A stretch of 64,000 nucleotides of DNA, taken from positions 26,410,501 through 26,474,500 of the forward strand of contig NC_092672.1 in assembly GCF_964355755.1 (NCBI RefSeq). The letters are read 5' to 3'. Shown here piece after piece: positions 11,601 to 61,798 of the stretch (positions are counted from its first letter, which is position 1; the number at the start of each line of letters is the position of its first letter). The DNA comes from Antedon mediterranea. Its lineage: Eukaryota > Echinodermata > Crinoidea > Comatulida > Antedonidae. The notes under the pieces are model-generated. The model was not told the origin of the DNA. It saw only the letters and a program-made list of their open reading frames with translations, and made no database searches. The translations under genes were made by a program, and so were the position numbers.

Positions 11601-14600
11601 ACCCATGCCATGAAAAAACAGCTTTCGTTTTTGTCAAGTCACCAGCTACTTTGACCAATTATAATGGTTCCAATTTAGAAGTTTGTTGTTGTTGAAACAA
11701 AAACAACACCTTGGCATATTAATCCCCTTTTGATGATTTATCCCTGGTGCTATACACATGATTGTGTTTTTTGTTTGTTCATATCTGTAATGTCTGTATG
11801 TATGGTGTATCAAAATAAATCAAATCAATTACTGCTGAAAATTTGTAGGTTTTGTTGTTGGGTGAAGCGAGAAGCATATCCAGTAGATCCATTAAGCAAG
11901 AGACAGCCGTCATCGATAGAACTTGCACGACGTGTTGAGACCCCTCCACAGCCAGGTCATACGTTAACACTGCTACCAACTCTGGTAATGACCAACCTGT
12001 TGCCATACGAGATTAAATACTTTGTGAAAGGAACAACAATGAAAGGAGAAATTGCTCCTGGCAAAGATCAGCCATTATATGGGGTGAGAGTGCAATTGTT
12101 ATTTTTATCACTGTTGGTATTATTATTATCCAAAACAACATCAGCACCACCGTCCAGCTCACCACCATCATCATCATTAATACCAGCATGACCACCACCG
12201 TCATCATTACCATTAGCATGACCACCACCTTCATCATAAAATATGAACACCACAATCATCACCATCATCATCATTACCATCATTACCAGCATGACCACCA
12301 CCTTCATCATTACCATTAGCATGACCACCACCTTCATCATAAAATATGAACACCACAATCATCACCATCATCATCACTGTCATCATCATTTCGATTATTA
12401 CTACTAGCATCATTATCACCACCATCATCATCACCATACCCCATTAGATTACCACCATCATTACCAGCATGACCACCATCATCATCACTACCATCATCAC
12501 TGCCATCATCACTACCATCATCATCACCACCAGCATCACCATCCATCATCACCACTATCATTACCATCATGACCACCATCATCATCACTACCATAATAAC
12601 CATCATCATCACTACCATCATCATTATCAGCAAGACCACCATCATCACAATCCATCAGCACTTCCATTATTTTTTAATTGTATTTATTTATTATCATCAC
12701 CACCATCATTACCATCATCACCACCACCACTGTACAGTAGTAATTGTCATCACAATATATGTAGCCATTGTTATTTTTCAAAACTCAAATTAATTGTGTG
12801 AACTCTTTTTCCTTCCAAGGTTGACATCAACCGTGAAGTAAGCTTCAACTTCACCATAGAAAACTTTCCAAAAGGAGCAGCAATAAATCTTCCTGCAGGA
12901 ATAGTAGATGATATGCGTGGAGATATCCAAATCTTTGACACCAAAAACAGACTTCTAGCATTGCATGCCAAGGTAGAAGTCAGGGCTTCCAGAGCATTAA
13001 AGGTATAAACCAATGATCTAATTCATTAATACAATTCTGATGAATGACTGAGTAGTGAGTGGTTAAGACAGTACAACCATAATATGTAGCCATAACATCT
13101 GCAATGGTTTGAGGCTCACTCTCTCTATGATTCTGGTGGTATAGTCTTCTCGGATAATAATAAACTGTAGGTCCCAGTGTACAAAAACTACTTGTGTTAA
13201 AGAACATTGTACATTTTGAGATAAGTAGATGGTTTGTATACACAGCTACTTCCACACACAGCCATGCATCATAGTCCTGTACGCTCCTCTCTGAGAACTG
13301 AAGAGGTCACCCACCCAAGAATGTATAATAACAAATGATGATTATCATAAATACTTAAATACAGCTATTGTTCACATTTAGATATCAAAATATTGTCCAA
13401 TATAGATTAATTAATGAATAACATTACAGATTACAGTCCTTTTTTTTCAATTACTTTTGATACAGTGTCTAATCTCTGCACCTTATTGGCTTATCAACAA
13501 GTCAGGACTACCGCTAATCTTTAAGCAACATGAAGGTGATGATGAGTCTGCTGGACAGTTTGAAGAACATGAAGCAGCAAGGAGCATGTCACCACTTCTG
13601 TACTCCTTCTCAGATTTTGAGAAGCCATACAAGTAAGTATGATGGTAGTGAATTGATTTTAAACAATGTTTAACAGGACCATGCCTTTAATTCTGTACTC
13701 TGTATACTGTAACTATCCTTCATTGTTCTTCTTTTTCTGATAATTATAATGTATACTGATATACTTATAGATATATATATATAGATTTCTTCTATCTAGC
13801 GCTTAGATTTATATGTTACACTTTTCAAGTACTTGCCTCCTCTAAGGTCAGGTTATGTCTGTGCAGCCGATTAAGGACCTCTCCTCTGTCTACTCACAGT
13901 ACCTGTCTAGAAAGATGTACTTGGTTCTTGGAGCACATTTGTTTGTGTACACAGAACCTACATTTGATTGAATTGAAATATTTTATTTATACTGGGCGAC
14001 CTCTTCAGTCAAAGACTGGTCTCCCAGAGGGCCCAGTTATAATCAGTGGCTGTGATGTACTAATACACCGGGGTAACCCCCTACTCGTCTCGAAAGATGT
14101 ACTAGGTTCTTTAAAGTACACATGAGCTAAATGTGTACACTGGACCTACAGTTTATAATCCTTATCCGAAAAGACTCGTTCTACCACCAGAACAATGGAG
14201 TGAGTGTGCCAATAACACTTTACAATATTATGGTTATTTAATACCACTTACTGTACTAGTGGTAAAGTATCCCCAAACTTACTGTGAAAGGTAGGTAATT
14301 GATCATTAATTCTTTTTCAAATTTATTTTCTAGATGTCAAATGCGGCTTGGTAAAGGATTTGCCGGACATGAAGGTCGACCTTATTGGTGTAGTGACTTC
14401 TCCTTGGATAGAGGTACTGGAGTTCGCTCACTAAGACTCTTGCAAAACAATGGAAGACCACAAAAGTAAGTTGTACTGACAACAATATTTATCTATCATC
14501 TATTGTATGCCTTAAGCTCTGTCTACACTATCAAACTGTATGTGACAAATAAAATGTGATGCGCCCATTATGGAGATGATGTCATATCAGTACCATATTT

Positions 14601-17600
14601 GGGCATATCACACTTTTTTGTCAAACTAGTTTGATAATGTAGACAGAGCTTTACACACACATCACTTAGTAGGGATAACCCTCTAATTCCACAAAATTTA
14701 CTTTAATTTTTTAACAGGGTGTTTCATCTTGGTATTGATGTTGTTTCTGGCAAAGGTCGATATATGTCTACCCACATTGTAACATTTGTACCTCGCTTCC
14801 AATTGGTCAACTTTGCAGGATGTAAATTAGCATTTGCTCAAAGGCATCTTGTCAAAGGCATGGTGAGTATCGTTTATAATACAATTTCAGTACTGAAGTA
14901 TATTTTAAGTTATTTTTATGTTACTATTTATTTTTTACGATTATTAATACTGTTGTCAATTTTTGCAGTGGACCAAAGTCCCAGAAGTTCATCTCGTTGT
15001 CATGCCAGAGTCAAGTGTTGTCTTCCATTGGCCACGAGATGACCTAGACAAATTGCTTTGTGTTCGAATGTCAGACGTCAAGGATTGTAGATGGTCAGGC
15101 GGATTCAGGATAGATCGGCCAGTCTCATTTAACATTAACATGAGGTGAATGCATAGACATACTACTAAACTAATTGAGAGTCAACTAGGTAAAGTGATGC
15201 AAAACAGGGGATGGCCTTTTCAAGATGGTTGTCGTATATCTGCTAAAAGTATTACAGTTATTATAAATTGTATTATATTCTTGTGTGGCTATGCTCAACT
15301 CACTGCAAGTTTAGTACTGCTTGATTGAATAGTAGGCATGGTTTCAAACTAGCATCTTAAATCCAATAATGCCTCTCCAATTTTAAATAATTGTGTTAAA
15401 GTTAACCCTAGAAGTTTGATATTATGGTTGACTATTTTTATACTACTTTATATGGAGTAAAGCGGACACAACAAGCTGAAATAAATTGTCTCAATTATTG
15501 TTGGAAGATTATTCTATTAATCAAGTTTGAAATCAAAAATCAAAATAACATTTATATCCTTCATTTATAAACAAACATGAGTATAATTTCTTACAATATA
15601 CATGAAGGAGGCACTGATTTCAAAAAGCAAAGCTTGTGCTAAAAGTGACAATATAAAGTGTAATACTCAAGAATACAATTTAAAAACAATAACATTTATA
15701 TCTTTAATATTCATATGTGTTTCTCTTATCTTTCACAGAGGCTCTGGTAACAACTCTACACTTCTCCACGTGGAAGTTAGTCTCAGGGGAGCCACCTACT
15801 TTGTTGTGTTCACTAATGTTGATAAAATGCCCCCACCGTATAAAATAGACAATAAATCAGATGTAAGTATGATCAACTTGTAATTGTATTAAACTACTGT
15901 GGAGTAGCTTTTGCGAGTAGGGCAAAACAAAGCTACTCCACAGTAGTTTAATACAATTACAACCCTGTTGGTGCAGTACCCGCTGCTTACTTGGGCTCGA
16001 ATCTAACCACTAGCCATCACTGCAAGCTTGGTGGTCTAGAGGTATGAACGCCAGGTTAGTGATCTGGCGGTCGTGGGTTCGAGTCCCACCCGAAAATTAC
16101 TTGCGAATTTGTTTCCGCTGGTATTCTCAAATGTACTTAGTATAAAGTACAAATAACGCCAGAGTAGGGCAAAACATCTGACCAATTATGATCAACTTCA
16201 AATCATTCAACAGAGTTGTAACTTTGTGGTTAAGATGCATCCTGGTTGTCAGGATTGTTTTCCCATGACAATAAAGACTTTCGAAGAATGTAATATGATT
16301 GTTTGCTGTTCAGTTTGTCTTATACACATTTATGATTAAAATTTTGAGAAAAAAAATATAAAATTCTATCTTTTAGGTTGATGTGATATTTTGTCAAGTT
16401 GATGTCGCTGATGACTCATTAAATACAACACTGACCTCGCAAGCTTGCGTTGCTTATGCATGGGATGAACCAGAGCTTCCAAAGGTATTGCAATGTACAG
16501 TTAAAGGAGGATCTAGCGCATATTACAAACTTGATCAAATTGGTGAGGGGGAACGCCTCTACTATGAAAATTTTATCTACATTACGATGGCAGCTACTTT
16601 TAATGGGTATGTCAATTTATTTTTTTGTGATAATCATCATCATCCTTAATTCTCGTAGATTTACTATAACTACTAGATAAAGAGATATTTATTTTCATCC
16701 TCAAGCTTAACTGGGAATGGGGATTAGGCCCTCTATGAACCCAATGCAGCCAGCTGGACAGCTGCTAACAGATCAGCACACCGATCCTGTACTCTTTTCG
16801 AATAGTGTACCAAGTTCTCAAGTTCTAACATGCACTATATGTACATGGGACCAATGGCTTTACGTCCCATCTGAAGGATGAGGCAATATGCCTAAGGATG
16901 CAATCAGTATAGTACAATAGGTTTGAACCCATGTCTATCACATGTTAGTTTGATATTATCAATACACTGTCACCTCCATTATATACAGCATCCAAAGTGA
17001 TATTCTCACAAAGAAAGGCTGATGTGATACACAGTGGTGATGAAGATGACACATTTAAACATATTGATCCCCAGTAAAAGTTTGTAATAGATTAGAACAT
17101 CTTTGACAAAAGTGGTTTGTTTTACTCAAATGCAAATACTCAACCATTAGACTACAGGACCAGCATTTATCAATCATTTTAAGCCAAAGATAGTTAAAAA
17201 CTATAGTGCTTTTAAAGTGAAAACTTTGTTTTCCAAAAATGAGTTATCAAATTGTGCTAAGGTTTGGAAACTGACTTAAACAAAACTGTTGACTTAAAAG
17301 TTAAGATGATTGTTTTTCTAATTTAGTTTGATAAATAGACACTTTAATCTTCTTGTATGTTTTAAACTTAAAATTTAAAGTTGAATGTCAATTCTCTTCA
17401 CACAGTGGAACTTTCCATGTTTTTTCCAGCTTTATTGTTGAGTTGAGTTTTTTTTTTAAATTTTCAAATGTTTCACTATTTATAGATTTGTTTGTGAATG
17501 ATTGAATGAAACAGTATACATTTTTTTCTAGATCAAATTGCAATTTACAATCACTTATCAATGGCAGCCAATCAGGACTACATCGTAATCAACAACTTGT

Positions 17601-26600: not shown

Positions 26601-29600
26601 TTGTAGTATTTGAAGTTTATTTAAATTAGATTTTATTTCATTTCATTTATTTATTTCACTTTACAAATATATAAATATAAAGTGGAGGAGCCTAAAAAAA
26701 AGCAAAGCTTGTGGTGAATAGGCTCCTCAAAACAAAACAAATAAAATATAAATAATATAACACAATTAGAAACTCCAAAAAAACAACAATTAAACTAATA
26801 TCTTTTCTCTAACACATAAGTTTAACATGTTTAGAACTAAAAAAACAAGTAAAAAATAGATTATAAAAATTATTTAAGAAATATCAAATATATCAATAAT
26901 AAAAGAATTTACAAAGAACCTTCAACCAATAATAGTTTAAATTGACGTTTAAATAAACGTTTAAATAAAGCACAGTTATGAGATTTTTTAAGAGATAAAG
27001 GAAGAGAATTCCAGAGTTTAGGTCCAGTATATACAAGGGTATTCATTTTAAGTCTAGTTCGAGTAAATGGCAGGTGATACTGATCTTTTTGTCTTGTTTG
27101 GTGAGTGTGGTATTGTTTATTTTGAGTGAATTTACTGGATATTATAGGTGGTAAGTGTCCGGCGGTTAATTGAAACATGATGACACCAACATTAAATCTA
27201 TAGAGATCCTCAATTTTTAATATTTTATTTGTTTGAAAGAGATCTTGGGTGTGAGCACGAAAAGTTACCCCTGAGATAATTCTGACAGCTCGTTTCTGGA
27301 TTAATAACATTTTAGTAATAATTGATTTTGAAGCATTTCCCCAAGCAAGAACACCATAATTTAAGTACGATAAAATAAGAGTAGAATATAAAATATTTAA
27401 TACTTTTTGAGGAAATATTGATTTCAATTTATACATCATGCCAACATTTTTTGATAATAATTTGGGAATGTGTCACACCAAACGATATTGCAATATAAGA
27501 GATATGGCAAAACAAGGGAGCAGTAGAGTGTTCGGAGAATATGATGTGGAAGAAAAGATGCCAGTCTACAAATTATACCAATATTTTTTGAGATTTTGTT
27601 TTCTGTCTCAATAACATGGGGTTTCCATGTCAGACGACTATCAATGGATACACCCAAAAATTTAGCATGATTGACCATGGGGAGAACAGAACCATTTAGT
27701 TTAATTTGCAATGGACCTAATTTAATTGGCATCGTACTACTTCTAAACAAAACATAGCTGCACTTTTTTAGATTTACAGAAAGGCTGTTTGCCAGAAACC
27801 ATTCGGATACATTAATTAAACTTGTATTTACAGTGTTAAATAACGACTCTAAGTGTCGATTTTTACAGATTAGTGTTGTGTCATCTGCATATAAAAAGTA
27901 AGATAAAGATACTGACGAATTGTAAATATCATTCACATATAAAAGAAACAGAAAAGGACCTAGTAATGAACCTTGTGGTACTCCACAGGTAATAGGCAAA
28001 TAGTCTGATTGGGAATCACAAAACTTGGTACATTGGTAGCGGTTGGATAAATAGCTCTTAAATAAATTGAGAGGAACACCGCGAATACCATAGTGATACA
28101 GTTTTGAAAGAAGAATGGGATGGTTAATGGTATCGAATGCTTTCGATAGATCGACAAAAACACCAATTGCAAACTCATCATTTTCAAATGCATCTATTAT
28201 TTCATTGGACAAATCAATTAAGGCCATTGCGGTATCAAAATGTTTGCGAAATCCAAATTGCTTATTGAATAGAATATTATTTTTTTCCATAAAGGCATAG
28301 GTTCTATTATAGATAATTCTTTCTAATATTTTAGAAAATAGCGAAAGGACTGAGATCGGTCGGTAATTAGATAAAGTGTCCTTTTTTCCTGCTTTAAAGA
28401 TGGGAGTAACTCTTGCCAATTTCAATTTATTTGGAAAAACTCCTTTTGTTAAAGACAGATTAAATATGTGACATAGAGGTTTAACCAAAAGGGAAATTGA
28501 TAGTTTAATAACTTTTGGACTGAATTCATCAAGTCCTTGCGCTTTATTAGTTTTAAAACAAATTCAAGAGTAAGAAGAAAACGTTTTAAAGAATCCATCT
28601 TGCCCAAGAGACTACGTGTATTAAAATGGATAGTAGACAAAACATTTTTATCATTGTTATGCTTAGAGAAATTCTCTGAGAATGTTTCTGGATCAAAATA
28701 ATTAGATTCATTTAAACTAGCATAAAATTGAGAGTGTGGATCAACATTTTCGTTAATATTCATGTTCTCGTATGCCACAAAAGGGTTAAATTTCACATCA
28801 GTTGTAGGGTTGGATTGGCACATTAATTATAAGGTATCATAGATAATTTAAACATTAGGTAAAAGTTAACAATAATATAATAAAATAAAAAACTAAATAT
28901 AACAATAATTAAACATAAAACAATTCTGTATAGTGCTGCCGTATTACTGGTAGCGTAAGCGTTGCACTCCCCGTGTATAAAACGGAGAATAATACATTAG
29001 GTATGCAACCGGGTATGCAAAGGTATAATTTGCATAATAATGGTACGTAGCGGACATACTTGGAATTTAAACAAGCAAAGCCAGGTTAAATATACTGAAA
29101 TTACAAAATGAAAGAAGGCAGAGAAAAAGAAACCATTCATATCTCAGTTCCTCAAATCACCGTAAAAGTTACTTGAATATATAGGGAGTCCCCGTAGAAG
29201 TTCGCCATTTACCAGCAGAGAATTTAAGTTTAGTTCCATTGTCATATAAAGCTTTAACTTGAAATTTCCATTTCTTCCTTTCTTTATAATCCACTAAGGT
29301 CAGATCATCTATCACGTAAAACTGTTTATCTTGTAAGGCAATATTCTTCTGTTTCATGACTTGAATTTTAGAGTTATAACTAAGTAGTTTAATTATAATG
29401 TGTCGGGGCCTCACCGGTAGTACAGGACCGACTCGATGTGCACGCTCTATCGTTGGTATTTCACTAAATTCAAAGTTATCTATTAGAATGTTCCTGGCCA
29501 AGACAACACAATCCTCACCTGATTCTTCTTTAAGTCCCACAATTCGAACGTTGTTACGTCGGCTGAAGCGTTCGGATTTGTTGGCCTCTAGTTCAAGCTT

Positions 29601-32600: not shown

Positions 32601-35600
32601 AAATCACCACTCAATAACTAGTGCAGTTCAGAGCATACAGTACTTACCAGTTAAAATATGAGAATAAATATTTATGTCATTTTGCTTGATACAATCATAC
32701 AGACGTTTGAGATCATTACCATTTAAGATCTGACCATCGTTCCAAACCTTATATGCTATGTTTGTGCATTGCTGCATTGCATTGATAATATCTACTTCAT
32801 ATCCAAGTACCTGAAAAAATTAATTTAAATGTATGCAACAACACTTAAATGTTCAAAAATATGGTTTCTTTCTCATTTCGTCAGTACAGTATTGAGCACC
32901 ATCCAAAATATGACAACTGTAATAAATTTGAACTGCACTTTTTTTTTCTAAACCTTTTCTTGTAATATAACTAAAACAATGCTTTCAATATACTGTATTT
33001 TGAAGTCATTACCAACAAAATGTTTGTGGTGCCATATTATGTTTTTGAAGGCTAGAACATTTATTATAACTTTATTTACATATTATATTATGATTGATAA
33101 CTTAAAATCGGTGCTCTATGGTCTTTTTTTATTGTTTGTATAATTTGTTGGAGATACTGTGATTAATATTTTACAAAATGTAGTTTTGGTTAGGCATTGT
33201 ATAGATTCCTTGACCCTTTTTTATTTTATTTTCTTGGTTTCTGGTTTGATCGAAGGCATGACAAGGATGCTAGGATTAATGAAGTTCTTTAATATCAAGA
33301 TTCAATTGATTCAAGACATTGTAATTTATCAAGCAATTAAACATGCGTGTGATTTTCCTCTGCCATTGTCATATAAATATATGCTTTTTATCAGCTGGTA
33401 ATAGTAATTAAACTACAATATGGTATACACACTCACAAATAATATTTAATAGATTAATGTTATAATATAGTAAACATTTATATTCATAGTCCACACAGCC
33501 TAATAATATTTAATAGTTTATAGTAATGTTATATTTGGTCATTCATGTTTTTCATATTGTATCATGCAATTATGAAGTACAAATATGCTTATTCATCATA
33601 AACATTGAAAATACTGTATTTACAGTGTTTAAATAAACAGAAAGAACCAAAATTGTTTCTTAGTCCAAGCTTTGGACTCAAAATTGTCGAGTCGAGTGGC
33701 CGAGCAGTTTGGTTTAAGGCCCTCGACCATTTTTTTTTGTGGTAGAACAATTCTTCTCGGATAAGGACTTAAAACTAGAGGTGCAGTGTACTCATCTGGC
33801 CAATGTGCACTTTAAAGAACCCAGTACATCTTTCGGAAGAGTAGGGAGTTACCCCGGTGTACTGTTCCATTCATCCCCTGCCGTTGAGGACAGACGAACA
33901 GGCGCCATTTGGTGGCAGCACTCGACATGAATGGATCCTTAACGGAGAAGAAAGTTTTGTATGTGTAGTCCACATCTGTTCACAATTCAGCCCTGTAGGC
34001 TGCCAGTCGCAGGTTATTCCCCCATTTACATTTATATATAGATATATAAATTTACAGGCATATATACTGTAAATAAATTTGATGGTCAAATAAGAAATTC
34101 TAAACTGCCTATATAAAAATAATATAATTAATAGATATATCATAAATTGATCATATTTTTTAATAGAATATAAATTTTACTATCAAAACAAACATGTTTT
34201 GGTTTGTCCAAACACTGGACAAAAATATCTCTGATAAAAACTGAATAAATTAAATTACAATGTAAAGATCTTTTCTTCAAGAGAGAGTGACCCATCTACT
34301 ACTGTAAATTTGTACCTTGCTGGAACATTATCACCATCCTCTTCCTTGTTTTTCACTCCTTTTGTTTTTCACTAAATAAAATGCACAATATCTAACCTGC
34401 ATTGGAAACACAGCTGCCTTGTTTCCAATATATCCAGACACAACATGAATTTGTATGGACAAAACACGGCGCTCGTGTACCGACATTTTTGATTGTCAAA
34501 AAAGAAAATCGACACAATTAGATACAAACACACTTGTAAGAGCTCCCAAATTAAACAAAGTGATCAAAGGATTTTTTTTATACTGCCGTCATAAAGTTAC
34601 AGTAGTCATTTTGACTAGATCCGCCTACCTATTGCATATTCAATGATTTTGATGACATCATCATCATGAAAGTCAGTTATTTTAGACTTGATTGTCCAAA
34701 CCTGTTGCATATTCAATGATTTTGATGACATCATCATCATGAAAGTCAGTTATTTTAGACTTGATTGTCCAAACCTATTGCATATTTAATGATTTTTAAG
34801 ACATCATCATAATAAAGTCAGTAATTTAAGACTTGATCTGCCTACCTATTGCATATTCAATGATTTTGATGACATCATCATGATCAAAGTCAGTCAATTT
34901 GATAATGTGCCAATTCAATTTGTATCCCTAGATCCCTGGATCTAAATTTCCTGTATATCCCCTTATTATGTTGTAATTTTCACCATACTGAGGAGATAAA
35001 AATTGTCACAGATTGTCTGTCTCCCTTCCCCTATTTTATGTAAGACTTGTTTACGGTGTGGTCCTTTGTGGTGAATTTGGCAGTACACCGAGAGGCGATA
35101 CCCTACTCTTTTTCAAAGAGTATACTGATAGTTCTTTAACATGCACATTAGCCATGTTCCAAAACAACTTAACGTCTTCCAAAAGACTACTACTGTTTAC
35201 ATGACACACGGAGAATGTCGATGGGAATTGAACCGTACACCAAAGGAAACCTATAGTATTTCATGGTTCAGCACACAACACAGTGGACTACCACCACTTT
35301 AGCCAACTGTGCTAAAGATGTCACTATCTCATAAAAATATATATTTTAATTTACCAGATGAGGCAAATACTGTACATCCTACCATCATATTTATTATTTA
35401 TATTATGGTTAGTAGTGTGATGATGATATTAAATTATTTGTATTATTTTTTGATGATTTTCAATGGAGTGATCCTTGACCACATATCTCATATCATATCT
35501 GTATTTTCATTTTAGTAAAGATCTTGCAATTACTTTTCGAGTAATCCTGCTAACAAACAAACAGACAAACAAACACGCGCGATCGGCTACATATACTTAG

Positions 35601-38600: not shown

Positions 38601-41600
38601 TAACTGCTATGAGCGCTCACTGGCTAAACCCAGGGAACTCGGAGCTTAAAGAGCCCTGATTCAGTCTGTTTGAAGACCCTACAGATTTGGTTAAGATTAA
38701 AAAATATATATTGTCCTGCGCTAAGCACTTAAAAACATATTGCTTGTTTTATTTGTTAATCATTTAGGGTATAATACTGTAGTAGTGTAAATAACTCCAG
38801 CTTGCCTTTGCCTCATCTTAATGTTCTGTACCCATTATGTTAACATCAACTGTTTGTTAAAGGACAACTTGACCGACGACCATATTTTTACAACGTATTA
38901 GGGATGTACAGCCGTCGCCGTCAATTGCTGTGACGTCAATGGTGCATTGCAATACTTCTCTTGTATGTTAACAACAGTGAAAACTAATTAAGTAGATGCA
39001 CGATTGATGTCACAGCAATTGACGGCGACGGCTGTACGGCGAGCGCGTGCGACGATATCCTTAATCTCGCGATTGTTCTGAAATCATATGTACATCCCTA
39101 ATACGTTGTTAAAATATGGTCCTCGGTCAAGTTGTCCTTTAAGAATATTAATATACTATGTAATCTGCTAACGGCTAGGCTACTCCCTGCTCAGAAATAA
39201 TATTGAGTTTACAATACAAATTTCAACATGCTTAAAGAGAAAGCACCTCACTGGCTTTTAATAAATTTAATTAATTTACTTTATTTCAGAACAAATGCTT
39301 CATTAAGCCAAGCTAAAAGATTTTTCTTTGAAACCATCAAAGTAAGCACAGCAGAGTTTCGCTTGACAGTTTTGAAATCCGTCCAGTTGCCTCCACGATA
39401 CAAGCAACTCAAATCCAGGATGCAACTTATGTTGATACAGTTTCAAGATGCACCAGTGACTCTTGACCCCTTCACACGTGTACACGCCTTTGAGACCCAA
39501 GAGTTATTGCTTGAAGCGGTTTCTAAACACTATACTGAAGTGAGTAATTTGATCATATAATAATACCTTTTTCACACCAATATGAGGTTTGCATAGTGTG
39601 AACGCAATTTTGTGGAAAATCTGACTCTATGAAAGACACACACCAGCAAGGACGAGGACAGTTCTGACTGTTCCGAGTTGTTACTATACATGTATTGTAT
39701 ACTGTACTTCAAAATTGCCCTTGTATTTAACTGACCAGTCCATGCATAATAATAAAAAAATGGCACCCACTATACCTTTTTCCAAGATTTCACAAGGTTT
39801 TTTTAATGTGTGTATGACAATGCATAATAAACCCAGGAGATCAAAGTAATGTAACAATTTTAATGCAGATGTCAAAATTGTATACTGTAGGTGTATTGCC
39901 ATTTTGTATCTTGAGCCATGCATTACTTTTTATAATGACTGTGCTATTGCAGCACACTCAGTTGTACACATTTTGAGAATTTGTGCAAATTATCCTGTAA
40001 AAAACATATTGTAGTCGAAGGCTTAAATAATTGTTATTTCACAGGAATTGAAGAGCCAAGCAGTAAAGATCCTTGGAGCTGTGGACTTCCTAGGCAATCC
40101 TATAGGATTACTACAAGACCTCCGTGATGGTGTAAGGGAAGGGTTAGAAGGAAACGTAGCTGGACTGTTAAGAAACGTTACTCATGGCATGTCCAACACA
40201 ACAGCAAAGGTAAGTGAAATATTTATAATTATATTTTACAGACAAAAATATTTTGAAATTGAATATTATCATACCATTTGATATTTAAATATTAATATTT
40301 ATTTCTATTTTTTGCATACAAAAACAAAGTAACTTAACAAATTTATTTTAATGATAAAAAAGATTGACTTTTCGAAATCTTCTGATGGTTTACAAAATTG
40401 CAATTTTTGCAACTAATTATAATAAACATCTCCCCAAAATAATATATTTAAACAATCATTTCAAAAAAAATGTTTTGTTGAGTTCCGATAACGTAATAAT
40501 AATAAATAATAATACATTAAATTCAAAATCATTAAACATTAATTAATTTCAGATGGCAGGGACGATTTCAGCAGGTATTGGCTTGGTCACTATGGATCGA
40601 AAACATCAGGATATACGCCATCAGATCCACAGATCTCACGGTGAATCTGGTGTCGGACATTTTATGGCTGGTGTCAAAGGTCTTGGATTTGGAGTTGTTG
40701 GTGGGTTAACCAGCGTCTTTACGCAGTCGTATCAAGGTGCAAGCAAAGATGGCGTTGAAGTATGTGTACTTTTGTGTCAATAATATATTTTTAAAAGATG
40801 AATCCAATTACGAAGAGAATGAAACATGTTTTCTAAAGCTCTGTCTACATTATCATAACTATTTGACAAAAAAAGTGTGTTGTGCCCAAATATGGTTTTG
40901 ATATGACATCATCATGTCCATATATAGTATGACATCACATTTTTTGTCACATAAATTTTGATAATGTAGACAGAGCTTTTAGGAAAACTAAAGGCTAGAA
41001 GTAGGCTTTGTTGACACAAAAATAGAAATATATATTTAGAGGCTCAGGTTTTTTTTTCTTACAGTAGAAGCCCTATTTTAATAAGTGGATACCTTAAGGA
41101 ATAAAAATGTGTCTCCTTTATAGTGGTGTCCCCTGAATAGAAGTTAATGTTTCTGTTAATCTAAAAAAGTGCTGTTGTATGGTGTTCAAAAATTCACAAA
41201 TACCACTAAATACTAGTACTTTTAAACTAAAAATTAAAGATCAATTAATACCTATTGTTGAGAAAACTAAATTTCTTGGTGTTTATCTGGACTGTAAGCT
41301 AAATTGGAAACATCAGATTACTCAAGTCGAAAACAAAATATCCAAAAGTTCTGGTATCATATATAGATTATCATCTTTCATCCCTCGAAACATACTCCGG
41401 ATTCTTTACTGTTCACTAATCCTCCCTTACCTCACTTACTGTAATATTATTTGGGGTAATACATACCCGTCCTACTTAAACAAACTGTTATTGATCCAAA
41501 AGAAAACCGTAAGATACATAGCAAATGCTCCTCCTTTATCCCATTCCAATCCTTTATTTTCTTCATTTGGTCTTCTTAAAATTCAGGATATTAACCATCT

Positions 41601-49800: not shown

Positions 49801-50229
49801 TCATATTAATAGAAGGTGTTTATTAGTTTAAAGAATTTTTCTTGATCATGATTTTTACAGTTCATGTGAAAAAATAACCATGTAGGCCCCCTATATTGTA
49901 GGGAATATATTAACTTTTATCATCCCATATACTGTATTTTGAACGACTGTTCCAGATTCACCAATACAGTATGTATACGGTTGTTGCGACAAACAAAAAC
50001 ATAAACATGCGTAAAAAAACAATATTTTGTTTTAATATTCGTTTTAAGGCTTCTAATTGTTTTTAATATTAATTTGTATAATATTGTGATGCGATACTAT
50101 GGGGCGCCATAAGCAGCAAAAGTGTGTAGCTGAAAAATGTATGTGTACATTTAAAATGTGTGTGTGTGTAATTGCAAAATGTATTTGTAAACCTAAAAAT
50201 GTGTGTGTATTTGTAAAATGCATGTTTGT

Positions 50230-50355
50230 AATTGTAAAACGTAGTTGTACACTTTTAAAATGTAGTTGTACACTTTTAAAATGTAGTTGTACACTTTTAA
50301 AATGTAGTTGTATACTTTAAAATGTAGTTGTACACTTTTAAAATGTAGTTGTAAC
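50230..50355 (+). repeat. 21-bp tandem repeat with gtagttgtacacttttaaaa unit
   Basis: Five to six copies of a unit close to aatgtagttgtacactttta, preceded by a looser run of aaatgt/gtgtgt units from about 50,110. A cysteine-rich ORF (50,099-50,320) results from the repeat and is not taken as a gene. Confidence 0.85.
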
Positions 50356-51152: not shown

Positions 51153-51570
51153 CTACATCACGCAGAGCTTGCTGGCTATAGTAATTAGTAGACCGAATTT
51201 GCTGTTCAATTTAGCCAAAATTGTTTTATTCTTTATTAATGACATTTCATTTGTACATTGATTGTTTATAAATGTAGGGTATCCATATATAGGCTATATA
51301 GGCTATATATATATAGGCCTAGGCCTATATAAAGTTATTGTCATGCTTTTGTTATGTTATGCACAATTTGAAATTGGGCATGACAACGTTTCGCTATTTG
51401 AACAGACTAAAATAAATATGTTACTGTTGAGTGTCAGCGTTTACTGTACATGTCATCAATTTAAAGGATTTATTTGTTTATACATTTTATAAGGGTCAGA
51501 CGTGAGCCTACTTATGAGGCCTACTTAAAGCCTAAATCCAAGATTTGCTATTCATGATATAGTTAGTTAA

Positions 51571-52048
51571 AGGACAACTGTACCGAGGACCATATTTTAA
51601 AAACGTATTAGGGGTATACATATGATTTCAGAACCATCGCGAAATCGAGGATATCGCCGCACGCGCTCGCCGTACAGCCGTCGCCGTAAATTGCTGTGAC
51701 GTCACAGGTGCATCGCATAATCTACTTAATGAGTTTTCGCTGTTGTTACCATACAAAAGATAGGTACCGTCACTTCAATTGCTTATTTAACCTTTTAAAT
51801 TACTTAAATTTGCCAAAATGTTTTCCTGGTATTTTGAAGAAACACTTCAATATCCAGATAGGCAAAACAAACAATAAAAAAATTCAACTTTTATATTTTT
51901 TACGATTTATTTAAAAAGTGTGTTTACTAGAAATGTTCGCGCTTTGCGAGACTTGTCTATGGGACCCGAAGAGTAGCTAGTAGAGAAACATGACGTATGA
52001 CGTTCTGGAATCATTCAACCATATCGGACTCAAAACTTTTTCTCTGCT
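51571..52048 (+). repeat. Left terminal inverted repeat of the Kolobok-type element
   Basis: Pairs with 57,411-57,886 along its full length. Only a handful of substitutions and one 2-bp indel (tagtagagaaac versus tagtagaaac) are seen. It begins aggacaactgtaccgaggac. It contains a CpG-rich stretch and the palindrome TGACGTCA (in ctgtgacgtcacaggtg), a CREB/ATF consensus site. Weaker similarity of GTG-rich sequence continues inward to about 52,125. Confidence 0.92.
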
Positions 52049-52151
52049 AGCTAGCGATTTTTGGGCCGTGTGCGAGCTTCCTCCTCCTCGTGTGTGTGAC
52101 GGTGGTGTGATCAACATTGTGTAGAGTAGTAGTAGAGAGAGGGAACTGAAA

Positions 52152-55100
52152 ATGCCGGCGTGTGTTGTTTCAAATTGTCGGGAATACGAAAAAGCCCGAT
52201 TAGATGGAATACCCTTTCATACCTTTCCAAATGATAAGGCGTTGGCCAGAAGATGGTTAACTGTTATTAGAAACGCTAATTTGAATCCCGGCTGTAAGCC
52301 GTCGACATACAGAACTTTGCGAGTTTGTGGAAAGTACTTCATGAAGTCAGATTACCTACCTGACCCAAAACACGATCTAGCTCCGCATCTTTACAAGCCA
52401 AAACACCGCCTGAAACCTGACGCAGTACCAAGTATATTTGCATTTAACAAACCTAGTAGTACAACTATGAGAAGTGCATTTAAAAAAAGACAGGAGGCTG
52501 GTAATCAAGAATCGGTAAGAACAATGATGAATTTACCACCAGAACAATAATATATTAATAATTAGGCCTAATATATCAAAGTAAAATATAGGCCTAATAA
52601 GTTTTTTTTTTCTTTTTATGTTTAGGCTAAGCCTAAAAAAAAATTAACAATTGACTGGGCCTACTACTCTGTACATTATTAAAATATTACATTTATGATA
52701 TAGGCCTAGGGATTTTAGGCTATGCCTAGCCTATAAATCCAAACAAGAAAAAATATAGCCTATGCTAGATAGTATTACTACTACTACTAGCTAGAGATAG
52801 GCCCTTTCTTAGTGCATTATTTTTTTTAAATGAAAAATGCTATAATGATGATTACTACTAACTAGGCCTACTAACTACTAGCCATCATTTGGTGATTGAG
52901 AACAACAACAAATAACACTAACTATAGTTTAAAAAAACAATTCTATTTTTTGTTACTGTGTAGAAATGGTATTAAAGAAAAATAAATATATTTAGGTTTT
53001 CACAGGCTCAGAATCATCGCATACATCACATGATGTCCAAGAAAAAAAATCAGTACATGGCAATGATGATGAGGTATGATTATTTATGGTTTATCTATCT
53101 TCACCAACTTGTGAATGCGTAGTGTATGTAATAATATCAAATTCTGTAAACTATATAATATTATAATTTTACAGGACTTAAATGTAAGCTTTTCATCATC
53201 ACATGGAAATGAGTCGATGGGATGGATACCAGAAGAGGACAGTTCTTCTCCCTCTGAAGAAGAAATAGAAGTAGTAGATGATAATGTTACAGGAAAAGTG
53301 ATAGTCAATGTTGATAGTGTGCTTGAAATGTTTAAGCGATGCCAAGAATGCGGTCAGAAGATAATATCAACAAATGTGTTATACAGGGGAGCACAAATAA
53401 TTGTACATTGGCAATGTACTGAATATCACTTTGGCAAATGGGAAAGCTGTCCAGATGTTCGTGGAATGGCAGAAATCAATTTACTTACAGCCTCTGCTAT
53501 TTTGTACAGTGGAAACACATATCAAGCAATTAATAATTTTGCTAAAATTCTTGATATGCATTTTTTATCATCATCAAGTTTTTATCAAATTCGAAAATGT
53601 TATTTGTTGCCAGTCATAAATGAAGCATATAAGGAACAACAAGATGTGATGATTGCCGAACTCATTTTAAGAAGTTTGGATAATGAGACTATCTCAATTT
53701 TGGGGGACGCCCGGTCAGACTCGCCAGGGTATTCCGCAAAATATTCTACGTACTCTTTTATTGAAGAGAAAAGTGACAAAATTGTTGATGCTCGGCTGAT
53801 ACAAGTGACGGAATGTTCCAGCTCAGTAGCAATGGAAAAGGAAGGTTTCATCAGAAGTTTAGAGTTTTTGTTGGGTCATGGCATCAACATCAAAACAATC
53901 ACAACTGACAGATCACCATCAATCAGAAAAGTTATGAAGGACGAATACTGGGAGATATCACATCAGCTTGATTGCTGGCATGTTTGTAAAGGTATGATTG
54001 ATACAGTAAAATAATTTTCTAACAAACTAAAACCAAATTAAATCCTTCATTTTTTTTACTCTCATCAGTATATAAATAAGCACCATATACATATTGTACA
54101 AATGAGCATTATATGAGTTTGCTCTAATCTATCTCATCTCACACAGTGTAATTTCAATTGACACTTCTTCTAGTCTACTAGTGTAGCACCAGCGAGTACA
54201 GTATATACTGTAATCATGTTTGTAAAGTTCATAAATTGTTTTACTAATACTATATTGTATATTTTATCAAATATTTCAGGCATTAAAAAGAAAGTCTTGG
54301 CAAGTGGTAAAAAGAAGGGAAATGAGCACCTATTATTGTGGACCAAGAGCATAACAAACCATTTGTGGTTCTGTTGTGCAACTTGTAAAGGTGATGTCCA
54401 GGTATGACCACTAGTGAATTTTTTTTTCAATCGACAGGGGTGAAGAGGAAAAGCAAAAGTAATGAAACTCTCATCTTGTGATGTGCTTAACAAGCCCTGT
54501 CAATATACTGTAAACAAAACAAAAATATATATTTATGTACATCATCATATTGATAATTGATATATAAAATACTCAAAATTAAAAAATCAGTTCTGCTTTA
54601 TACTGTGTTTATTATTAATAAGTACTATATAATTAATACAGAAATAAAAATAAAGTTGTGTCCAATAAAAAATATTGCAGTACTATATAAACTGCTCTTA
54701 TACTAGTATAAAAGAAAAAAGAGCACCATCATCATCATTCTCTAAATTGAGCTTTACACTATTTTTTTACTAATGTTTAGGTACTCAAAAACAGGTGGAA
54801 ATCAATTTTAAATCACGTGGTAAATGTTCACAGATGGGAGGAAGATGGGATTGAGAATACCTGTGCACACAGTGCCCTAACAGAAGAAGAAGCAGAAAGC
54901 AAGATATGGCTAGAATATGATTCGCCAGCCTATGATGCTTTGAAAAAAATTGTACTGGATAAAAGATTAGATAATGATCTTGGTCAACTTGGAGAATTTA
55001 AGCATACTGGTGGGTGTGAAATGTTTTTTGTGTAGACAATAAGAATTAAACGTTAGTGTAAAACCCATTTTACTTACTCACTGCTCAATTCTTCAATTCA

Positions 55101-55649
55101 GGTACCTTAGAGTCCTATCATGCCTCGTACACCAAGTTTGCCCCAAAACGAATTCACTTTCATTATGGTTCTATGCAAGGCAGGACTCAGCTAGCAGTTA
55201 TAGATCATAATGCTAATGTTGGCAGGAAACAGGCACAAACAATTGCAGGTAATACTTATAATGCATGTAATAAAATAATACGACACTTTAAGTTAATATA
55301 CAACATTTTATTATATTCTCTGTTCACCCATGTCTAAACTGTCTAGTCCAGCTACATAATAGGCCTATTAAAAATGATTTGTTTTTCTGAATTTAATTGT
55401 AGGTGATCTTCGATACAAAATGGTTTGCCCAAAAAAATTTATGAAGCTAAAAAATATGATTACGTTGTTGATCTGGTTGAGAAGACGCTACAGAGACGAA
55501 TGGACCCAGGTATAAGGTACAAATATACAGAATCTGCAGTGCCTCTTCCAGAATTACCAAAAAACATCTCAAAGCAGGAACAACCTTCTAAAGATTTATT
55601 AATAAATGAATATTGTCAAAGAACCGAGCAAATTATGGATAATCAGTAG
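52152..55649 (+). CDS. THAP-domain transposase (Kolobok type), frameshifted near its C-terminus
   Basis: Cuts and pastes TTAA-flanked DNA. Exons: 52152-52514, 52996-53073, 53175-53991, 54280-54401, 54781-55009, 55102-55248 and 55403 onward, with phases consistent. Residues 1-85 form a THAP zinc finger: MPACVVSNC gives the first two Cys (C-x4-C), then FHTFPNDKALARRW and LRVCGKYFMKSDY. The usual C-x2-H ends here as C-x2-Y. An acidic linker follows. The catalytic part has QECGQK, ILGDARSDSPGYSAKYSTYS (Asp), ITTDRSPSIRKVM (Asp) and QLDCWHVCKG, and later HASYTKFAPKRIHFHYGSMQ. In the last exon the frame closes soon after KMVCPKK. The family-like continuation IYEAKKYDYVVDLVEKTL runs in another frame to 55,649, with an A7 run at the junction. 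Confidence 0.82.
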
Positions 55650-55692
55650 ATGATTATGATGGTGATGATTTAAATACTGTTGTTATACAAAG

Positions 55693-55698
55693 TTTATT
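55693..55698 (-). terminator. Polyadenylation signal for the ballast-domain gene
   Basis: AATAAA on the minus strand about 21 nt after the TAA stop at 55,719-55,721. Confidence 0.55.
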
Positions 55699-55718
55699 TT
55701 TCAGTTTAATCGAACAAA

Positions 55719-56695
55719 TTATGCATCATCAGTAGCAGGCCAAGAAAAACCTTTGTATGTTCCATCAGGTGAAGGAAACTTTTCTCTAATTTTCTTGACC
55801 AAACAAGCTGGCAATACCATTCTGTTCTTGTAGCCTAGTTTTTCACCTTGTAGAATCCATTGTAGTACAACTCTGTAAGCTACAAGGCGGTATTGTCTGA
55901 TAATTTAAAAAAATGAATGACTTTAGCTAAGTCTGTTAAAAATAAAAAGTGCCATGTTTTCTATATTTTGTTTTACTCACTGCTTGTTGATATCTAGTAT
56001 TCTATATAGTAATTGGTTATTAGAGTGACTTTTGAAAACATGGTCATGCAAAACAGATTTAGTGGTCAAATGTATTTTTAAAAACAAAACATATTCTTGT
56101 GCTTATAGAGTAGTTCTCTTGAGTTTAACACAATGGAACTAGCGGCAAAATGAATGTATTATGTAGAAAGAATAAAAAAAATAAATAAAGGAAGAAAGAT
56201 ATCTTGAATAAAAAACCAAAAGCCTTACTCATTATTTAGTTGGCCATGTAGGCCCCTTGGTTTCGGAAATTGTTTCCAGTTGTGTCGATGACTTCGAAAA
56301 AATGTTGTCAAAACACTTGTATTTAAGTGTGCTTCAAGATCACAATGAGATGTAATGCACCGTAATAATAAATCGTCATCTTTTTCCATTGGAGTTGTAG
56401 TAGGCCTCTCTCTCTCTAACAAAGACAATGTTTGTTGAACTTCATTGCAACATACACATTCGTCTTCCGTTGCCATTGGTGTACAAAAACCACATGTACA
56501 CCAAAAACTGTCATTCAGTCTACTTACTAAAGCAGTTGGCAGGGGTGCAACTGCACTATTATTCTTCTCCTTTCTTCTGCGCTCTATCTCGGTTGGTGAG
56601 TATTGTGGTTCAAATAAATATGGTTTTGGAACAGAATAAAAAATATCGTCGTCACTTCCATACTCTTCTTCTTCTGTTTCATGCACTTCAGCCAT
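55719..56695 (-). CDS. P2X7 ballast-type zinc-binding domain protein, 214 aa, transposon-borne
   Basis: Two exons, 56695-56229 and 55896-55719, joined in phase (467+178 nt). The N-terminus is acidic (ETEEEEYGSDDD). The body matches the cytosolic C-terminal 'ballast' domain of P2X7 receptors: WCTCGFCTPMATEDECVCCN (W-C-x-C-G-x-C and a CC pair), RCITSHCDLE, then across the splice QYRLVAYRVVLQWILQGEKL, VLPACLVKKIREKFP and DGTYKGF. In P2X7 this domain holds a zinc cluster and a guanine-nucleotide site. There is no channel or transmembrane segment here, so this is the stand-alone form. The stop is TAA at 55,719-55,721. It converges with the transposase gene inside the same TIR pair. Role unknown; a transposition accessory or cargo protein is possible. 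Confidence 0.85.
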
Positions 56696-57410
56696 GTTTT
56701 ATCGTTATATGTGTCTATGATGAAATTAAATGAGAGTATTAAATTGGGCTATATTAAATACCGATTTGATATGCACTGCCTAGTAGGCCCTGGGTCTACC
56801 TAGTAGTATTCAATCCATCTGCCTAACCCTTCCTCTAGCTGGGCACAATATGATTATGAGTGAGGATTTCGAGTAAAATATTATTAATATTATTATAATA
56901 AGTTCATGAATTTTTAGGCGTTCATAAACGGCGGCCATGCCCCACCCACCATGCCATGGCCAAAGGCCCAAAATAATCAGACCCACTCTAAGCTAGTAGT
57001 AGAGTACTACTAGGCCTAGGCTGGTACTAGGTAGGCATAGTACTATACTAGGCTCTTGCGCATATCAATTAGTAGCCTATTTATTATAGGCCTAGCCTAG
57101 TAGAATAGGCTTACCCAGACTCCTACTAGGACTAGGCTAGGCATATATATAAAAGAAAACAGCGGCAGCAGAGCCAGAGCAGAGGGGACCTAGCTAGGCC
57201 TAGGCCTAGGGTTAGGCCTAGTTTTGTTTTCCAAAATTGAAATTACGAGACCCTGACACAAAAACAAACATAATCTAATTTTTTTTTTAAACTTACGTGA
57301 TAAGCCCACGATCAATGCTAAAAAACTTGTCTGGAAAAATTACAACTATCTCACACACAGAGTTTACCACATCACCACACGTCACATACACACCACCACC
57401 ACACAGCAGC

Positions 57411-57886
57411 AGCAGAGAAAAAGTTTTGAGTCCGATATGGTTGAATGATTCCAGAACGTCATACGTCATGTTTCTACTAGCTACTCTTCGGGTCCCATAG
57501 ACAAGTCTCGCAAAGCGCGAACATTTCTAGTAAACACACTTTTTAAATAAATCGTAAAAAATATAAAAGTTGAATTGTTTTATTGTTTGTTTTGTCTATC
57601 TGGATATTGAAGTGTTTCTTCAAAATACCAGGAAAACATTTTGGCAAATTTAAGTAATTTAAAAGGTTAAATAAGCAATTAAAGTGACGGTACCTATCTA
57701 TTGTATGGTAACAACAGCGAAAACTCATTAAGTAGATTATGCGATGCACCTGTGACGTCACAGCAATTTACGGCGACGGCTGTACGGCGAGCGCGTGCGG
57801 CGATATCCTCGATTTCGCGATGGTTCTGAAATCATATGTATACCCCTAATACGTTTTTAAAATATGGTCCTCGGTACAGTTGTCCT
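57411..57886 (-). repeat. Right terminal inverted repeat of the Kolobok-type element
   Basis: Reverse complement of 51,571-52,048. It ends cggtacagttgtcct followed by the TTAA duplication. The CREB/ATF-type palindrome is conserved. It probably supplies the promoter for the minus-strand ballast-domain gene whose ATG is about 715 bp inward. Confidence 0.92.
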
Positions 57887-57890
57887 TTAA

Positions 57891-58185
57891 CACATTTGGA
57901 GTTGAAACAGCAGTAGGGCTGGTGTTAGGCTAGCCAAACCTGCAGGGTATGGCCTAGCCTAGTAGTAGCCCAGCTAGCCCTACTAGACCTGGGTAAAACA
58001 ATCAATATTTTACTACTAAAATAACAAAATGCGATATTCTATTCTTCTTGTAATGTAGAATAATCCTTTAAAATATATCTAAACAAAATATGGGCTTCAC
58101 CACTAGTACTGTAGTAAGATAGTTAATTCAGTACTGTATCTGTATTGATGAATTTAATTATTAATAATAATTTGTTTTGTTTCAG
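57891..58185. other. Spacer between the transposon and the HECT gene
   Basis: Contains more TAGGCC-type sequence and an intron-like end: a T-rich tract and acceptor tttgttttgtttcag at 58,171-58,185. A 5' non-coding exon of the HECT gene may lie here or upstream. No promoter motif is identified. Confidence 0.45.
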
Positions 58186-61100
58186 ATAACTACTGTAAAA
58201 AATAAAGCCATGGCATCGCTTTCAACAACTGATATAGATAATTTAACCAAATCCCTACTATCAAATGACAATTTTTTAACAATCATTCAGAATGTAACTC
58301 CAAATGCTCAACCTCAAACACATAGAAATACTACAAGAAGACCACACCAAGATCTAAATAGTGAAATGAATAGTTTATTTACCACACCAAGATCAAGAAA
58401 TACCACCAGAAGAAGAACACAAGATAATTCAAGGTCTCGTTCATGCTCTAATTCTAGGCAAAACCAAAATTACTTCTACTTAAAAGAAGTCATTTTATTG
58501 GATACATCATAAAGCGATCAAATACCCAGGGCAAATTACTATGGTAAACTAGATGAAAAAGGTTAGTTATTTATTATGATTATTATCCTAATCTACTATG
58601 TATTTCAGTTTTTTATTCAATACTAAAAAAAAATATTGTTTCTTACAAATTTTTGTTTCAGAAAAGAAATCTTTTCTTTTTTGGCACATTCATTTAAAAA
58701 AATGTATTTATAGTCTAAACATTTTAGGTAATGAACTTTTTTAAACAAAATTCCTTCCTAAAAGTCAATTGGGATTCATGAATAAATATATAAAAAAAAG
58801 TATAGAATAGTGTCTTGAGTAAAAAATCAATTTATTTTTTTTTCAATCTTTTGAAAGTTGATAAACATTTTCAAGGTTCAACATGGCCTATTTATTTTTG
58901 TCTGCATGAGAAATCATATTTACTGATTATGTATCATTAAATTTGCTTTTAACACTACAGGTCATGTTTATCATCATGTTGAACTAGAACAATGCATGAC
59001 AGCAAAAGAAGTTTACAAAAAATTGGAAAATATGTTTTCAGATATATTGGAAATTGAAAGTGATCCAATTAAGTAAGTTCTTTTGATTTATTTAAATTTA
59101 AAATAAAGTACTGTAACTGTAGTGAAAACTAAAATGTTAAATTTAGTTTACAAGCAATGTTGGATTTGCAAAAAAATATTTTGAATAAGTACATATTTTT
59201 GCTCAGCGAAAGTGGGATTCTGATTCTTTATTTTTGGTTACAAGCATGACTGATTCATGGAAACAACATTCCAGCTTCCTTTTCATCTTCAAAAGATTAA
59301 ACAAAATGCCTTGCAAAATCTTAACTTTGAGCTTTCAATATAATGTGATAGTACCAACATAAGAAGTTTGTTAACCTGTGTGCAATGATATGATGTACAG
59401 TTAAGATCAGAATAATTTTTGAAGCATTTACATACTCACTGTTGACTAATAATAATAACAGGATTTTTATAGCGCACATACCACTCAAGAGTGCTCAAGG
59501 CGCATAGTAGTTGATTTCTTATTGCAAGACTAGAACAATTTTCCATTTCTACAAGCAATCATTGGTCATTACAATATACATACCAGTACATATTCTGAAT
59601 GTTTTTAATAAATAACTATAATAATAAATGAACTGTACCTTGATATTTTGGTGCTGAGCATTCTAAGTCAGAAAAAAAAGAATGCCTTGTGTACAGCTTT
59701 CACCTCCCTTCAGTAAATGTTTTAAGTATAACATTTTGTCATCTACATTTTATAAATTATATCTTTTAGGTTTGAGTTTATGATTGGAATGGGTTCACGA
59801 TTAACTAAACTACGTTTAACTGATGATCAAGAAAGGAATGCACAGCTTTTGCATCGTTTATATGGAAACAAGAGGGTGTACTTGTTGCCTTCCCGAGATA
59901 TTGTTAGTACAACTAACAGTAACATTAGTGACTATTTATTACCTCTTAGTCCTACATCTGATGCAAAAGAAAGTGATACTGAAGTAAGATACATAACATA
60001 ACATTTTTGTTTATAACCGGTTTTGTCTAAATCTTTTCAGTGCAATTGTAAATGAATTAATTGTATTGTGGTATTATGATATGAGATTTTTTTTTTTTTT
60101 CAAGATTCAAAAGTTGTATTATAAATCTGAATTGTCAATTCAATTCAAATAAAGATTTATTTCTTCCAAGTAAAATTAAAAAAACATTTCTTTTTATTTT
60201 CAAATTATTTGTGAAATTATAAAAGAATAAAAATATAAGAAATGTCTAAAAAATGTTAATGAAAGCGGCAAAAAAAGCTAGAAATATTTATAATGTATGG
60301 AACATACTGTATGCAAACAAGTTATTTGCAGTTATCAGTATATGGTATCTACAATCTGTTAGAGTAATATACAATAGTATTACATGTACAACATGAATGA
60401 TGAATGTATTTATTATTTAATTTTATTATTCATATGTAGGTTGTAGACTCAATACAGTGTGTAAACTGTTACAAAATGATTTCCAGTACTGAAAAACACC
60501 ACTGTAACGGTGGAAGTTCACAGCCTAGAGGTGCAAATGAGTGTTCAAGGCAAACTTTAGATTTGTCTAATAAGCAGAGTGTGAGATCATATATATATGA
60601 AATGTTCCCAAACCAGTCGACTAAGAGTATTGAAGACGCACTTAACTTGGCTGACGTTAATGATGCCATCGACCTTCTCACAAACAACATCTCGAAGGAG
60701 GAATGCATAAAGAGCTTTAAAAAAAAGTGTTTGGAAGAAACAGAACATCTTCAAATTAGAAGGAATGAACTGTGGCGTGATGGAGTCCTGTTCTACAAAA
60801 AAAGTTTGGCCGAAAAATCAATGTTAACAAAAAAACTGTGCATTGAGTTCACAGGAGAAGAGGGCGTAGATGGTGGGGCCCTTAGTATAGATTTTTTTGA
60901 CACATTTTTCAAAGAGTCCATTAATCGTTTGTTTGACAAGACTGACGTTGGTTTTATTCCAAATCGTTCAGGAAACAATCTAGTTCCCTTTAAGATTCTG
61001 GGGTTGGCAATTTCGCATAGTTTGTTACATGGTGGGCCACCATTTCCAAATCTACCTATGTGGGCCTATTTATATATTGCAGGAAAACCAGAAGAGGAAA

Positions 61101-61798
61101 TAGATTCTATATTGTCAGGGCATCAACCCAAAGAAATAATCCCATTAAATGCAGCAACTGCCAATTTGTTGGCTTTTTTGAATGGATTGGATAATTGTAA
61201 GAGCACAGAAGAGATAGATAACCTTATGGATGAATCAGCAGAGGGGCCAGCCTATGAGCAGTTAATCAATTCAAGTCAATGGCCAGTTGAATGTAAAATT
61301 TCAATTGAAAATGTTGAAACATTAAAAAGTATGCTAATCAGAGATGAAGTAGTTGGCAAACGAGAGAAGCAACTACGAAGCATAAGAGATGGCCTTCAGT
61401 ATACAGAACTTATGCCATTCATTGAAAGATGCGATGAAATGTGTTCTATTTTCCTAATGAAACATGTGGATATGACACCCGAGTTGATGGTAGACATAGT
61501 AGAGTGGGATACTCTGGAGAATGTTCATAAAGAGAAAGAGTGGTTACGGGAAGCAATTAATGAGATGTCATGCCAAGAATTAACATGTATGCTAAAATTT
61601 TGTACCAGCTTTACACAGTTCGACAATATTAATAAGCCAAGAATATACCTGGAAAAGAAAGATGACAGGATGTGGCCAGAATCATCTGTTTGTACGTCGA
61701 CTTTATTTTTACCTTTAGGGTATACCAACAAAGATGAGTTCAAATCTTGCATAAAAAGTGCTTTTAAATATGGGCATGAAGGCTTTGGAAGATTATAA
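58186..61798 (+). pseudogene. CUE plus HECT E3 ubiquitin-ligase-like gene with one in-frame stop
   Basis: HECT ligases pass ubiquitin through a catalytic Cys. Exons: 58186-58561, 58961-59072, 59770-59983 and 60440-61798, all in phase. The first ATG is at 58,210. The N-terminus is Ser/Arg-rich, then KEVILLDTS, a TAA stop at 58,510-58,512, and the same frame goes on SDQIPRANYYGKLDEK into the next exon. The last exon has CVNCYKMISSTEKHHC (zinc-finger-like), a CUE-like helix set (YEMFPNQSTKSIEDALNLAD, then DAIDLLTNNIS) and an HECT domain from RRNELWRDG, with FTGEEGVDGGALSIDFF. The C-terminus has WPESSVCTSTLFLPLGY, where the Cys aligns with the catalytic T-C-F-N position, and ends EGFGRL. It resembles G2E3-like HECT proteins expanded in fish and invertebrates. 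A downstream start could bypass the stop. Confidence 0.75.
59455..59520 (-). mobile_element. SINE 3'-end fragment in a HECT-gene intron
   Basis: aataataacaggatttttat followed by agcgcacatacc and gtgctcaaggcgc resembles the inverted 3' end of tRNA-derived SINEs such as that at 63,676-63,855 (ttatatagcgcccttttcat). It is short and diverged. The other HECT introns (58,562-58,960, 59,073-59,769 and 59,984-60,439) show nothing else. Confidence 0.4.

Follow-up and report, generated by a model that had tools for sequence, protein, structure and literature searches.

A Kolobok-type DNA transposon of Antedon mediterranea carries KolX, a stand-alone gene with a P2X7-type ballast domain

The original Kolobok families of DNA transposons, termed Kol0, encode the protein KolX besides their transposase, while other Kolobok lineages possess a nuclease or a helicase as the accessory protein (Kojima and Bao, 2022; PMC9587614). 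According to the same work, KolX is similar to residues 476–595 of P2X7, a region with the cytoplasmic ballast fold; P2X7 arose when a P2X4-like gene was fused to KolX, and domestication of KolX probably gave rise to Nanor in fish. Rump et al. (2020; PMC7016195) described the ballast domain in stand-alone proteins across Metazoa and in Nanor of fish, and reported that the synteny of some of the stand-alone genes is conserved from sponge to sea urchin. ZCD and Nanor are treated there as host genes, whereas the KolX described below is a transposon gene; the string 'transpos' does not occur in the main text of that paper.

The DNA analysed here is a 64,000-nt stretch of the Antedon mediterranea genome, referred to in its entirety as the window. 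A preliminary description had presented the ballast domain as known in vertebrates as the tail of one receptor, a statement at odds with the stand-alone proteins and Nanor already on record (PMC7016195). It had also proposed that a transposon gene was fused to a P2X channel, which is the published view of Kojima and Bao (PMC9587614). Because these authors already state the link, the present finding rediscovers it. What is new is a well-preserved example, which supplies independent support, from a 354-Mb genome, for the relation between the P2X7 tail and a transposon gene published in 2022. The gene is very probably the KolX of a recently moved, Kol0-type Kolobok cut-and-paste transposon, and its product would act in trans as an accessory to the transposase. 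Young copies in which both genes are full length provide material for testing the role of KolX in transposition and, with it, the original function of the P2X7 ballast domain.

The element and its transposase gene

The earlier claim of a TTAA-flanked element bounded by terminal inverted repeats is borne out at positions 51571–57886 of the window, with TTAA on both sides and inverted repeats of about 478 nt. The element ends and TTAA sites were called by pattern, and identical ends were found at copies with different flanks.

51567..51570: left TTAA target-site duplication, read from the sequence
51571..57886: complete DNA transposon of 6,316 bp, a Kolobok and, judged by its KolX gene, of Kol0 type; termini AGGACAAC...GTTGTCCT
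51571..52048, plus strand: left terminal inverted repeat, 478 nt
57411..57886, minus strand: right terminal inverted repeat, 476 nt
57887..57890: right TTAA target-site duplication, read from the sequence
38861..39138: 278-bp MITE, a separate non-autonomous relative whose ends are of the same type and are flanked by TTAA on either side

The two inverted repeats differ by 4 mismatches and 2 gap columns, and appear in the repeat listing as 419 nt at 99% plus 65 nt at 100%. Both the 4-bp TTAA target-site duplication and the termini, AG...CT, agree with Kolobok, whose 5'-RR and YY-3' termini distinguish it from piggyBac (PMC9587614). We counted TTAA/AG...CT/TTAA ends together with a THAP/DDE transposase for Kolobok identity; placement in the Kol0 lineage, made by the presence of KolX beside the transposase, is a probable one. 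Since the 278-bp MITE possesses ends of the same type and TTAA, it suggests that the ends suffice for mobilisation. This MITE is partly palindromic.

The transposase gene lies on the plus strand, convergent with the minus-strand KolX gene, and about seven exons were predicted from AG/GT signals and reading frame.

52152..52514, plus strand: predicted exon 1, THAP domain (Pfam THAP, 3.8e-13 in the open frame, 4.5e-12 in the spliced protein)
52996..53073, plus strand: predicted exon 2, from AG/GT and frame
53175..53991, plus strand: predicted exon 3, GDARSDSPG (first D), TTDRSPS (second D) and the DCWH signature
54280..54401, plus strand: predicted exon 4, FCCATCKGD, the Cys part of a zinc-finger-like motif between the second D and E
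54781..55009, plus strand: predicted exon 5, NHVVNVH
55102..55248, plus strand: predicted exon 6, TLESYH, the third acidic residue
55403..55649, plus strand: predicted exon 7, frame lost in the window copy, giving 622 aa instead of 676

A THAP domain is usual in Kolobok transposases (PMC6004289), and the THAP match of the spliced protein reaches 47 bits against a cut-off of 23.9. Pfam Mutator matches the unspliced frame of exon 3 (3.2e-7) and is absent from the matches of the spliced transposase. The predicted DDE triad, with the C/DxxH signature between the second D and E, is found at GDARSDSPG 324, TTDRSPS 390, DCWHVC 413 and TLESYH 538, motifs that were chosen by eye; a stretch rich in C and H stands before the final E motif. 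In the window copy the last exon lacks 28 nt (site 55428–55437) that are present in the other 6 of 8 aligned copies.

KolX and the P2X7 ballast domain

The preliminary description had also claimed a two-exon, 214-aa protein on the minus strand, and we found the same exon coordinates with an ATG start, a stop and a GT..AG intron, whose splice sites are preserved in 8/8 aligned copies of the element.

56229..56695, minus strand: KolX exon 1, acidic N-terminus and cysteine clusters C66, C68, C71, C82, C83, C113
55897..56228, minus strand: KolX intron, 332 nt, GT..AG, donor GTAAGG, acceptor TCAG
55719..55896, minus strand: KolX exon 2, RxxAYR...W...LPAC...KIRxxFP...GxYxGF; Pfam P2RX7_C

A profile search of the 214-aa product, the check proposed for it, returned Pfam P2RX7_C with an E-value of 2.9e-15 and 57.1 bits against a curated cut-off of 23.5. 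Exon 2 by itself matches the same profile at 1.3e-9, and exon 1 by itself at 0.038, under the cut-off. At E up to 1 the 214-aa protein matches no family other than P2RX7_C, and no P2X channel domain was found, in agreement with the earlier description of a product that has no channel part; in P2X7, by contrast, the ballast domain sits on a channel. Among sequences of solved structures, a search at E up to 10 gave 8 matches, the 4 significant ones all being P2X7 (best 6u9v, 5.5e-6) and the remaining 4 Autophagy protein 16 (0.13–0.96). Local alignment of KolX to the P2X7 ballast stretch scores 105, compared with 66 for the best of 2,000 shuffled KolX sequences. For this alignment we used residues 473–595 of P2X7 in the letters of PDB entry 6u9v, which we take to be rat P2X7. 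Identical residues number 40 of the 117 aligned, two of which (S33 and P34) are strays that the aligner set well outside the domain. The KolX N-terminus is acidic, with D or E at 9 of the first 20 residues. We also note a 28-nt direct repeat (86%) at 55622–55649 and 55708–55735, where the 3' ends of KolX and the transposase gene face each other; it may be due to chance.

The earlier reading of a ballast cysteine pattern and C-terminal signature agrees with the P2RX7_C match and with the alignment of all seven candidate zinc cysteines: C477, C479, C482, C498, C499, C506 and C572 of P2X7 correspond to C66, C68, C71, C82, C83, C113 and C187 of KolX. These are considered candidate zinc ligands because they coincide with the cysteine clusters of PMC7016195 and the seven conserved cysteines of PMC9587614. 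By its description, the published KolX (PMC9587614) resembles the gene found here in being the second gene of a TTAA Kolobok beside a DDE transposase, in its similarity to the P2X7 ballast domain and in its seven conserved cysteines.

The GDP site of rat P2X7 comprises R546, H547, R574, R578 and K583 (PMC7016195). Two of these five, R546 and R578, are retained in the window KolX, whereas H547, R574 and K583 are replaced by L, V and S. The stand-alone ZCD and Nanor proteins likewise keep R546 and R578 and, like KolX, are short proteins that end in a ballast-type domain (PMC7016195). In an alignment of seven KolX families of this genome with P2X7, nine positions are invariant in all 8 sequences, namely the equivalents of R546, Y550, R551, W556, P570, C572, I577, R578 and P582; since some of the aligned proteins are full and others partial, the C-terminal half is the only part that all of them cover. 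The other KolX sequences are 30–39% identical to the window KolX, and conservation at this distance is a stronger sign of probable selection than the within-family counts given below. An equivalent of H547 is present in 5 of the 8 sequences, rat included. Rump et al. reported no H547 from invertebrates (PMC7016195), but it occurs in 4 of our 7 aligned KolX families; the R546–H547 pair is retained in the KolX of L018, L026, L033 and L045, which represent these four families. The gene structures differ as well, the ballast domain lying within exon 13 in P2X7 (PMC7016195) and being split by an intron in the window KolX.

Copies of the element and further KolX families

With the 982-bp KolX region as query, the same genome (18 contigs, 354 Mb) yielded 14 matches, 7 of them full length at 99–100%, the window copy included. 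Nine further regions were fetched, and seven of these were aligned with the window copy, two (L016 and L017) being left out as decayed and rearranged. All flanks that were read differ. TTAA is present at both ends of the window copy, L010, L013 and L014; L009 has TTAA at the right end and CTTA at the left site; in L011, L012 and L015 the right end alone was found, with TTAA. The 214-aa KolX frame is open in 6 of the 8 copies with their different flanks, so that the outcome named beforehand as refuting the transposon gene, namely other copies without it, did not occur. In L011 and L015 KolX exon 1 is shorter by one nucleotide, with loss of the frame. An uninterrupted transposase frame of 676 aa is present in L010, L013 and L014, and one of 675 aa in L015; three of the 8 copies have both genes at full length.

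The window copy differs from L009 by one nucleotide in 6,316, and the two share the 28-nt loss in the last transposase exon, with 622 aa each. This near-identity, together with the common loss, indicates that a copy with a shortened transposase moved recently; either it was helped in trans or the truncated enzyme still works.

Selection on KolX within the window's family is only hinted at by codon comparisons. Among the 6 open copies there are 4 silent and 1 replacement codon changes (P = 0.014 against a neutral fraction of 0.755), a weak test given that L012 alone accounts for 3 of the 4 silent changes. Transposase exons 1–6 show 1 silent and 6 replacement changes among 5 copies.

A P2RX7_C profile search of this genome gave at least 70 matches, all over the Pfam cut-off; matches were counted exon by exon, so that one gene may give two, and the counts of matches found are lower bounds. 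The same profile gave no match in 14 control genomes. Context was examined for all but 29 of the 70 matches, and the best 30 loci fall into 7 clusters. With the window's transposase as query, a Kolobok-like transposase match lies downstream of KolX, in convergent orientation, in 5 of the 7 clusters, the weakest being that of L026 (39 residues at 1.9e-5). In family F3, for instance, L049, which belongs to the same copy as L025 and lies on the downstream side of its KolX, matches transposase residues 19–115 and 187–591. Two clusters (F6, comprising L032–L044, and L020) showed no transposase match within about 1.5 kb of KolX. TTAA/AG ends with different flanks were found upstream of KolX in four clusters: in 5/5 copies of F3, in 4/4 of F5 (L028–L031), in 9 of 10 copies examined of F6, L042 having an altered site, and at 2 distinct sites among 3 loci of F7, L045 and L046 having one site in common. 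The pairing of two convergent genes in one element thus recurs in the window's family and in other families of the genome.

One F6 copy (L034/L048) has a far end, TTAA/AGATCATGG, about 3.1 kb from the near end, and the window's transposase gave no match in L034 or L048. With ends at this distance and no such matches, F6 looks like a non-autonomous element of about 3.1 kb in which KolX was retained. Selection on KolX was considered for F6, whose frame seemed well kept, and was dropped: the last KolX exon of 13 copies shows 15 replacement and 4 silent changes, which fits a neutral fraction of 0.75 (probability of 15 or fewer of 19, 0.74), and the frame is lost near the KolX end in 2 of the 13 (L040 and L041). 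By these counts KolX in F6 appears to be a passenger in neutral evolution, which fits a protein acting in trans. Near the other end of F6 lies an inverted stretch whose translation resembles the N-terminal frame of its own KolX. Beyond this genome, pattern searches for relatives gave 51 matches in IMG/VR viral contigs and 413 in prokaryote genome contigs, and none was confirmed.

Possible functions of KolX

The most likely reading is that KolX assists the transposase in trans. KolX would be produced from the element, would use its seven conserved cysteines to fold around zinc, and would act with the transposase in assembly, end pairing or repair; copies lacking either gene could then still be moved by proteins made elsewhere. 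The nuclease or helicase that serves as accessory protein in other Kolobok lineages (PMC9587614) favours such a role in DNA steps. In an early jawed vertebrate, following the published inference, a related KolX and a P2X4-like gene would have fused to give P2X7. Points against the main reading are the two clusters with no transposase match near KolX, the short match of L026 and the weak selection test within the window's family; moreover, the conserved synteny of some stand-alone ballast genes (PMC7016195) fits host genes better than mobile ones.

It is possible, though distinctly less probable, that KolX is no transposition cofactor and instead regulates or shields the element, for example by acting on host silencing or repair or by limiting copy number. 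The direct contact of KolX with the transposase is putative, and the acidic N-terminus and zinc-stabilised domain would also suit a protein–protein adaptor. The ballast domain of P2X7 gives no guide here, since the functions of its GTP/GDP and zinc sites are called unknown (PMC9859053). The accessory enzymes of the other Kolobok lineages, on the other hand, point to DNA steps (PMC9587614).

A bolder reading, which we consider improbable, makes the accessory a guanine-nucleotide-binding cofactor. GTP is a cofactor of the Drosophila P element transposase (PMC7776569), an enzyme that possesses a THAP DNA-binding domain, as does the window transposase. KolX might supply in trans to its THAP transposase what the P element enzyme has built in, and the GDP site of P2X7 might be a relic of that role. 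This analogy stands on two or three conserved residues, the equivalents of R546, R578 and Y550 being invariant in the seven aligned KolX families. The systems differ in that the P element transposase has its GTP site within an insertion domain of its own, GTP use by Kolobok being hypothetical. GTP, GDP and guanosine do not occur in the main text of PMC9587614, and in the open-access literature we found no paper combining at least three of Kolobok, GTP, P element and ballast.

That KolX is here a domesticated host gene within an old insertion has a parallel in the proposal for Nanor in fish (PMC9587614) and is very improbable: the ends and TTAA sites are intact, and near-identical copies elsewhere in the genome, one of them a single nucleotide different in 6,316, mark the element as young. 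Least credible, to the point of being negligible, is a host ballast-domain gene trapped by chance between two inverted repeats, which is rejected by the recurrence of KolX in copies of the window's family with different flanks and across other families of Kolobok type in this genome, and by its published standing as a lineage trait (PMC9587614).

The window has several other features. Just outside the element, plus-strand frames extend over 58171–61798, and one of them matches a HECT ubiquitin-ligase domain at 3e-10. A VPS13-like gene is represented by frames at 10726–12191 (VPS13_VAB, 1.3e-5, over the cut-off, and 0.0061, under it), and a reverse transcriptase frame at 27436–28563 (RVT_1, 3.4e-34). 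Two Rfam tRNA matches, of 57.9 and 34.8 bits, are found at 435–506 and 16028–16093, respectively, and tandem arrays at 12159–12661, 34627–34894, 3041–3263 and 50133–50353.
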